Below are positions 3,089 through 33,956 of a stretch of DNA of 64,000 nt, piece by piece. Position 1 is the stretch's first letter. Every line of letters begins with the position of its first letter. Source of the DNA: Acidithiobacillus ferridurans (GTDB lineage: Bacteria > Pseudomonadota > Gammaproteobacteria > Acidithiobacillales > Acidithiobacillaceae). The stretch is from NCBI RefSeq assembly GCF_003966655.1, contig NZ_AP018795.1, positions 248,001 to 312,000 on the forward strand, in the 5' to 3' direction. The notes beneath the pieces are model-generated. The model did not search any database. It had not been told where the DNA came from and saw only the letters and a list, made by a program, of their open reading frames with translations. A program made the position numbers and the translations under genes.

Positions 3089-3398
3089 TGGCGGAGGCGG
3101 TGAGATTCGAACTCACGAGGGGCGTTAACCCCTGCCGGTTTTCCTTACCCGCTATGGCTTTCGCCACAGGGCCACAAGGACCCCTTTGGAGTCTGGATCA
3201 TGCCTTCACCCTGGCCATGAGGCTGTAGGTGGGAACCGTCTGATCTCTACACCTTCCGGAACTTTTCCGGCTTGGCTCGGCGTTACCTCGGATAAACCAG
3301 GGGATTCGCCGAATTTGATTCCTGCCACCCTGCCCGTTTCCCGGCAGAGGCTCGATTGGGGACAAGACCGGTGCAATCAACCGCTCTGCCACACCTCC
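3089..3398 (-). tRNA. tRNA-Ser(UGA), split by an intron
   Basis: Two separated pieces on the minus strand make one class II tRNA. The 5' exon (3398-3364, 35 nt) begins GGAGGTGTGG and runs through the D arm to CCGGTCTT. The 3' exon (3143-3092, 52 nt) begins GAAAACCGG, has a long variable arm (AGGGGTTAACGCCCCT), the T arm GTGAGTTCGAATCTCAC and the acceptor strand CGCCTCC, followed by an encoded CCA (3091-3089). Joined, the exons give 87 nt plus CCA with the 7-bp acceptor stem GGAGGTG/CGCCTCC, the stem CCGGT/ACCGG and the loop CTTGAAA, hence anticodon UGA (serine). The break falls between U34 and G35 of the anticodon. Confidence 0.93.
3144..3363 (-). ncRNA. Group I (IC3-like) self-splicing intron in the tRNA-Ser anticodon
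   Basis: The 220 nt between the exons hold the core of a small group I ribozyme. From memory of the Azoarcus tRNA-Ile intron, the same blocks occur in the same order: GCCGGGAAAC, TCAAATTCGGCGAA (P3/P4 side), AACGCCGAGCCAAGC, AAGGTGTAGAGA followed by the P7 strand, CCCACCTA, and GGTGAAGGCA followed by the second P7 strand. The P7 pairing is GATCA (3245-3241) with TGATC (3200-3196), where Azoarcus has GACTA with TAGTC: a two-base compensatory change. The 5' exon ends in U and the intron ends in G, as group I splicing requires, and a GAG in the intron can pair with the exon CUU. There is no internal protein gene. Confidence 0.92.
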
Positions 3399-33774: not shown

Positions 33775-33956
33775 GAACCCCCCGCCTGGGTCGTGCAGCC
33801 CGCTACCCCATGAACCTGATGTACAGGTGGGAATCCACACACCGCTTCAGGCTACTCCGCAAAGGAGCGGCACACCACGGCGATGACTGGGGACACCCTG
33901 GATAGACAATGTTGGTTCAGGAATCATCTCGGCCACTCGAGCCCCGCAGGAGGCAA
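33775..33956 (-). ncRNA. ssrS: 6S RNA
   Basis: The 180-nt gap between zapA and fau is the classic 6S RNA site. The sequence folds as expected for this sigma-70 RNA polymerase decoy: a closing stem CCTCCTG (33953-33947) with CGGGGGG (33784-33778), an inner stem TGAACC with GGTTCA flanking the central bubble, and a terminal hairpin GCTCC TTTGC GGAGT. A strong promoter stands directly upstream. Identification is by position and fold; I could not run a covariance model. Confidence 0.8.

Follow-up and report, generated by a model that had tools for sequence, protein, structure and literature searches.

A putative self-splicing group I intron in the anticodon of tRNA-Ser(UGA) of Acidithiobacillus ferridurans and other bacteria

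We found that the tRNA-Ser(UGA) gene at positions 3089–3398 (minus strand) of the window, the 64,000-nt stretch of Acidithiobacillus ferridurans DNA analysed here (RefSeq assembly GCF_003966655.1, contig NZ_AP018795.1, positions 248,001–312,000), is interrupted after U34 by a group I intron of 220 nt. Judged from its sequence, there is little doubt that this is a group I intron splicing from tRNA-Ser(UGA), and it is probably active. It would be an autocatalytic intron of the bacterial tRNA anticodon, IC3 type, interrupting the only tRNA-Ser(UGA) gene that we detected in this genome, and we infer that it is spliced in the cell. This adds tRNA-Ser(UGA) to the bacterial tRNA genes occupied by group I introns, in named, cultured species. 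The sole detected gene for a UCA-reading tRNA would depend on a ribozyme, and ordinary tools see the genome as lacking this tRNA.

The interrupted gene and its intron

With introns allowed, ARAGORN called a tRNA-Ser(tga) of 90 nt with an intron of 220 nt and exons meeting as ...CUU / GAAAA.... The joined exons, 90 nt with CCA and 87 nt without it, make a proper tRNA according to ARAGORN, in which all traits of tRNA-Ser(UGA) are present (long variable arm, UGA anticodon, encoded CCA) and whose layout is the same in seven empty sites of related genomes. A sequence-only reading of this DNA had placed a group I intron between bases 34 and 35 of a tRNA-Ser(UGA) at these coordinates and had predicted an 87-nt joined product. 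Both hold, as do the coordinates, with the gene on the minus strand, and ARAGORN with introns and the covarying core described below agree on the insertion. The bases that the same reading had noted at the splice sites, U preceding the intron and G ending it, are those of the window sequence (Table 1). Its expectation that ordinary finders would miss the gene was borne out: default ARAGORN on the window returned a tRNA-Glu only, and Rfam cmscan at gathering thresholds returned a 6S RNA and the same tRNA-Glu only, both leaving the locus blank. The 6S RNA lies on the minus strand at 33775–33955 (67.3 bits). At relaxed thresholds, the best Rfam match at the locus was a tmRNA (16 bits vs. a cut-off of 47, E 0.00024), which we discarded, since in it the 3′ half of the tRNA and the intron end are aligned to the tmRNA end.

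Table 1. Features of the interrupted tRNA-Ser(UGA) gene, in window positions
Feature	Positions	Strand	Basis
5′ exon of tRNA-Ser(UGA), G1 to U34, 35 nt, ending C32 U33 U34	3364..3398	-	ARAGORN with introns; (near-)identical in 8 other full genus copies and 7 empty sites
Group I intron, 220 nt, GUCC...GUAAG, IC3 type by kinship	3144..3363	-	ARAGORN, genus alignment, covariation
UC directly 5′ of guide, complementary to 3′ exon G35 A36 (3142–3143), predicted P10	3354..3355	-	UC in 29/29 scored Ser introns
Internal guide sequence GAG, intron positions 11–13; predicted P1 with exon CUU (3364–3366), U34-G at splice site	3351..3353	-	sequence
P2 hairpin	3328..3349	-	read from sequence, outside covariation count
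P3 5′ strand	3317..3322	-	99.7% of cells paired; 4/6 pairs changed on both sides
P4 (3307–3313 with 3276–3282) enclosing P5	3276..3313	-	P4 96.2% paired; P5 outside count
P6 and extension	3252..3275	-	covariation helices 3 and 4
P7 5′ strand; part of guanosine-binding site by analogy	3240..3245	-	absent from search model; covariation, values in text
P3 3′ strand (pseudoknot with P7)	3232..3237	-	covariation
P8	3207..3231	-	covariation helix 6
P7 3′ strand	3196..3202	-	covariation
P9 region, GAAA tetraloop and terminal G	3144..3193	-	sequence
3′ exon of tRNA-Ser(UGA), G35 to CCA end, 55 nt	3089..3143	-	ARAGORN, genus alignment

To search for related introns we took the 134-nt core from 10 Acidithiobacillus copies and made of it a covariance model (R1) that includes P3, P4, P5, P6, and P8 and leaves P7 out. 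R1 gave full-length matches to all 100 loci, 98 of them at 57.7–174.4 bits, L099 at 38.6, and L102 at 33.6. Across the 100 aligned cores (98 distinct), 96.9% of 2971 cells in 31 pairs, P7 included, were paired, and the covariation score was 0.516 vs. 0.160 in shuffled alignments (0/500 as high) and at most 0.092 when slid, in an alignment that, P7 excepted, was fitted to the tested structure. P7 alone was 93.7% paired with a covariation score of 0.495 vs. 0.180 shuffled, but in two of its five measures, pair count and number of pair types, it did not exceed the shuffled alignments.

The guide is a consistent feature, a G[A/G]GC near the intron 5′ end being found in all 29 scored Ser introns, and the terminal G is present in 9/9 genus copies having both ends. 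A U before the 5′ splice site paired with the guide G, together with a last G, was seen in the window and in eight other genus copies found by similarity; genomes outside the genus are no test of these bases because the search pattern demanded both. The intron has an antisense frame without stops over its full length (73 codons), and in the sense direction the longest open stretch is 54. Both frames are short for a homing endonuclease, and no ORF of endonuclease size is present. P7 of the window intron is AUCA/UGAU; many relatives, the tRNA-Ile(CAU) intron L224 among them, have ACUA/UAGU. The two-base compensatory change in P7 that the sequence-only reading had described relative to the Azoarcus tRNA-Ile intron is in keeping with this, L224 being the tRNA-Ile(CAU) intron compared.

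In the mechanism that we propose, the pre-tRNA would fold into the P3–P8 core, and P1, formed by exon CUU and guide GAG with a U34-G wobble, would set the 5′ splice site. A guanosine bound in P7 would attack after U34, the terminal G would next occupy the guanosine site, P10 (UC with G35 A36) would align the 3′ exon, and exon joining would yield a normal tRNA.

Relatives, guide flank and descent

The sequence-only reading had suggested looking for the same insertion in related Acidithiobacillus, where we found it in 10 of 17 genomes; the window's own copy and eight others match all 310 bases, and that of G011 is cut by a contig end. The remaining seven genomes have an exact empty site, in which the two exon pieces abut in an uninterrupted tRNA-Ser(UGA) whose D and variable arms show a few differences from the intron-bearing exons. 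These empty sites in close relatives make intron gain or loss testable. The upstream 1.5 kb is common to intron-bearing and intron-free genomes (16 compared, G011 left out), and about 1 kb of it also occurs in G296, from another genus of the family. A gatB homologue lies within about 1.2 kb of the gene in 17/17 genus genomes, and intron presence and absence on the gatB tree amount to one change. On this tree G296, a long and partial row, and G002 branch outside the intron-free set (split support 69/55), which suits ancestral presence followed by one exact loss. The DNA 3′ of the tRNA gene is mostly unalike among Acidithiobacillus genomes. In the window this side (1–2920) encodes an ArsR-type regulator and a methyltransferase that we take to be ArsM, an arrangement resembling an integration hot spot.

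Beyond the genus, an exon-only pattern run over GTDB genomes with the bases next to the splice sites fixed returned 52 loci. A core motif was present in 27, of which 26 were called tRNA-Ser(tga) and one was cut at its 5′ end; the other 25 had neither core motif nor tRNA and were set aside as chance. In all, split tRNA-Ser(UGA) genes amount to 31 introns in 31 genomes, mostly Acidithiobacillaceae and Betaproteobacteria (10 genus genomes, G296, L215 of G874, and the 27 pattern loci less eight already counted). Fifteen belong to the Acidithiobacillaceae clade, and the other 16 to Pusillimonas, Allopusillimonas, Methyloversatilis, Propionivibrio, Sulfuritalea, and MAGs; two of these MAGs bear the titles Acidobacteriaceae and Mycobacteriaceae, which are given as in the records and may be wrong. 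The split gene is thus present in at least two bacterial lineages. Within the class, R1 matched 44/369 genomes at E ≤ 0.01, a large share of them over positions 10–82 only, 38/398 genomes of the phylum at 1e-6, and 43/300 genomes of G385's order at 1e-6, among which G385, G390, and G397 were carriers known beforehand. The window gene was also compared with plasmid and phage records, of which 16 and 17, respectively, gave matches, none of them over 80% of the query, the best plasmid match covering 49% at 73% identity in the intron core and the phage hits among the matches listed being tRNA ends. One exact 18-base P7 pattern was absent from viral contigs.

Other hosts make up 69 alignment rows, 52 of them labelled tRNA-Leu(UAA) and the remainder tRNA-Arg(CCU), tRNA-Leu(CAA), tRNA-Ile(CAU), single others, and two without a host; several hosts named by ARAGORN were corrected after inspection of the exons. 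Related introns in tRNA-Leu(CAA) (L075, L178, L179) follow a 5′ exon ending in CUC, which gives C-G, not U-G, at the splice site. Probable related introns, with hosts assigned by eye or ARAGORN, lie in tRNA-Lys(UUU), tRNA-Arg(UCU), and tRNA-Thr(UGU) (L093, L193, and L235, respectively), and another (L234, likewise assigned) apparently lies between bases 33 and 34 of a CAU tRNA.

Among known systems, the tRNA-Leu(UAA) introns share with the Ser intron the site between bases 34 and 35, the GAG guide, core motifs, and a similar size, and are its neighbours in the full-intron tree; they differ in the host tRNA, in having UU and not UC before the guide, and from the Acidithiobacillaceae introns in the P7 AUCA/UGAU. 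The Azoarcus tRNA-Ile(CAU) intron is of subtype IC3, with a compact core and a GAAA tetraloop in the P9 region, as in the Ser intron, but has another host, insertion point, and P7 pairs (compared through its relative L224). Its structure is given as solved in excerpts of PMC3984707. Bacterial tRNA-Arg(CCU) and tRNA-fMet introns are likewise group I introns of the anticodon loop, with a host and insertion point different from those of the Ser intron. According to excerpts of the respective sources, group I introns are the reason why 36 genomes appear to be without fMet or Ile2 (PMC8450103), the Synechocystis fMet intron has a 150-codon ORF, and inserts in Arg, Gly, and Lys tRNAs are of only 22–49 nt (PMC5733544). 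The hosts named among excerpts of PMC8450103, PMC4033280, PMC3984707, PMC6125680, PMC5733544, PMC11408192, and PMC11782384 include Leu(UAA), fMet, and Ile2, and in the open-licence literature searched, as far as its excerpts go, we found no bacterial tRNA-Ser host of a group I intron. The earlier suggestion that a serine host is unusual and perhaps undescribed agrees with this search, and needs amending in that the host, with 31 genomes, is not confined to one organism.

The sequence beside the guide follows the host. The 3′ exon starts with AA in tRNA-Leu(UAA) and GA in tRNA-Ser(UGA), and directly 5′ of the guide stand the bases UC in 29/29 Ser introns with located ends, and UU in 46/53 Leu(UAA) and 3/3 scored Leu(CAA) introns; this scoring left out 19 introns with other or unclear hosts and the Ser rows L010 and L162, in which the gene is cut by a contig or locus end. 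Four of the seven Leu(UAA) exceptions have an extra G before the guide. P10 predicts exactly this change from UU to UC, which fits the new 3′ exon. The C of UC can also pair with intron base 1, a G in Ser introns. One GAG guide serves both hosts because the 5′ exon CUU is common to them. If the Ser introns form one clade, the UC change is one event and not 29; introns of common descent do not count as independent cases. The replacement of UU by UC beside the guide would document, in nature, how a ribozyme was adapted to a new host gene.

Sequence and structure comparison places the intron by descent with the tRNA-Leu(UAA) introns, at the same insertion point, and its IC3 assignment, in keeping with the IC3-like core that had been proposed from the sequence, follows from this kinship as seen with R1 and the full-intron tree. 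In the full-intron tree (87 rows), 29 Ser introns lie on one side of a branch, beside Leu introns, with support 91/96 (not starred) and recovery in 92% of 200 bootstrap trees. These 87 rows remain after removal of nine of the 100 rows with long branches or unassigned host and of four more without called intron ends. The full tree includes P1 and P2, which could resemble each other through a shared host. In the core-only tree (100 rows) the Ser introns do not form one group and need three changes, at least two of them forced by starred branches; on the core with the nine rows removed, a single Ser clade was not rejected (AU p 0.43). We consider it likely that there was one move from the Leu lineage to tRNA-Ser, accompanied by the flank change from UU to UC, then inheritance in Acidithiobacillaceae with one exact loss, and we infer the direction of the move, from Leu to Ser. 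A different history, which leaves the identity of the intron untouched, has Leu-type introns colonising tRNA-Ser(UGA) twice independently, in Acidithiobacillaceae and in Betaproteobacteria, with the UC change arising twice. The core tree parts the Ser introns of the two groups in this way, and their P7 differs (AUCA vs. ACUU), ACUU being also the P7 of many Leu introns, but the full-intron tree unites all 29 and the core does not reject their single clade, so that we regard two colonisations as possible but rather unlikely.

Dependence on the interrupted gene

RF00005 detected 41 tRNAs in the window's genome, with the serine anticodons GCU, GGA, and CGA; as the sequence-only reading had foreseen, the genome thus seems to lack tRNA-Ser(UGA). 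Neither RF00005 nor a pattern for the uninterrupted anticodon arm found an intact tRNA-Ser(UGA) in this genome, parts of which are masked, and for this reason the lack of a second gene is not absolute. Within that limit, the second, uninterrupted copy that the earlier reading had named as evidence against it did not turn up. Run on 33 genomes, the pattern found an uninterrupted anticodon arm in 7/7 intron-free genomes and in 3/26 intron-bearing ones (G004, G387, G389); it was absent from 23 of the 26, the window's genome included. G004 has a second, intact tRNA-Ser(UGA) beside the interrupted one and is the sole such case among the 26, and in G387 and G389 the uninterrupted copy is truncated and ARAGORN calls no tRNA there. 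The intact copy of G004 (locus L255) is one of seven tRNA genes in about 2.3 kb. Within the genus, 9/10 intron-bearing genomes are without an intact gene, two of the 10 being only 81–85% complete.

If there is no other tRNA-Ser(UGA) gene, the cell has to splice to read UCA codons, and splicing would be essential to it. On the contrary reading, the intron is a dead remnant that has lost splicing, and either a gene not seen here supplies the tRNA or a different tRNA decodes UCA. Masked stretches of the genome could hide a second tRNA-Ser(UGA) gene, and UCA is rare, with 4 of 116 serine codons in the eight ORFs counted. However, the exons and core pairs are kept across many genomes, all seven intron-free relatives have one intact gene and nine of the ten intron-bearing genus genomes have none, and besides UGA the serine anticodons are GCU, GGA, and CGA only; a dead remnant is therefore very improbable. 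Neither fMet, tRNA-Ile(GAU), nor tRNA-Ala(UGC) is among the 41 tRNAs, and stretches beside both 5S genes are masked as N. The two CAU tRNAs of the genome were judged by eye to be Ile2 and elongator Met, and a search for an interrupted fMet gene with a pattern and an E. coli fMet query gave nothing convincing.

The general group I model, RF00028 (Intron_gpI), gave no match at the locus at gathering or relaxed thresholds, and over the genus it gave sub-threshold matches in 3/17 genomes (best 23.8 bits vs. a cut-off of 50). In a control on 10 loci with related introns, it reached the cut-off in three (L193, L087, L081) and missed seven, including ordinary tRNA-Leu(UAA) introns, so its silence here is weak evidence. 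In archaeal sequence, excerpts of PMC6125680 report no significant RF00028 match where subtype models found 39 introns. The sequence-only reading had counted the lack of a group I covariance score against itself; RF00028 is indeed blank at the locus, yet it fails equally at most of the control loci, and the R1 core model finds related introns. That the inserted DNA is no ribozyme, e.g. a protein-spliced intron, would accord with the blank RF00028 result but is scarcely credible against the covarying P3/P7 pseudoknot, the guide pairing, the terminal G, the kinship to tRNA-Leu(UAA) introns, and the failure of RF00028 at seven of ten loci with the same core.

An element with a split gene in two MAGs

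In the betaproteobacterial MAGs G387 and G389, an inserted element with inverted ends TTATCTWAACC / GGTTTAGATAA, flanked by GAGTTC, disrupts the T-loop of the resident intronless tRNA-Ser(UGA). The element of G387 is 2.5 kb long (L268 2110–4638, in region L268:2066–4700), and the tRNA is broken after GAGTTC. It holds a complete intron-bearing tRNA-Ser(UGA) at L268 4256–4559, ending 68 nt before the right terminal repeat, after which come GAGTTC and the missing tRNA 3′ end. Six plasmid records match the G387 gene, none over 80%. G389 has the same two element ends on two contigs (L269/L270), for which reason their belonging together is an assumption. In both MAGs, then, the intron-bearing gene is apparently part of an element that interrupts a resident intronless tRNA-Ser(UGA).

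We give even odds to the idea that an endonuclease-free tRNA intron can spread as a passenger on an element that disrupts the tRNA gene already present and replaces it with an intron-bearing one. If this is true, the host would come to need splicing, and unrelated bacteria could acquire the intron; the presence of the element in two MAGs suggests such a route of spread for introns lacking an endonuclease. The left end of the G389 element encodes a tyrosine recombinase (PF00589, E 1.2e-18) with nine NCBIfam matches, all under their cut-offs (e.g. GmtY, 48 bits vs. 340), and at the left end in G387 only part of this recombinase is left (71% over 87 residues). In G389, a type I-G cas3 (TIGR02621, 557.8 bits vs. 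400) lies within 0.9 kb of the intron-bearing gene.
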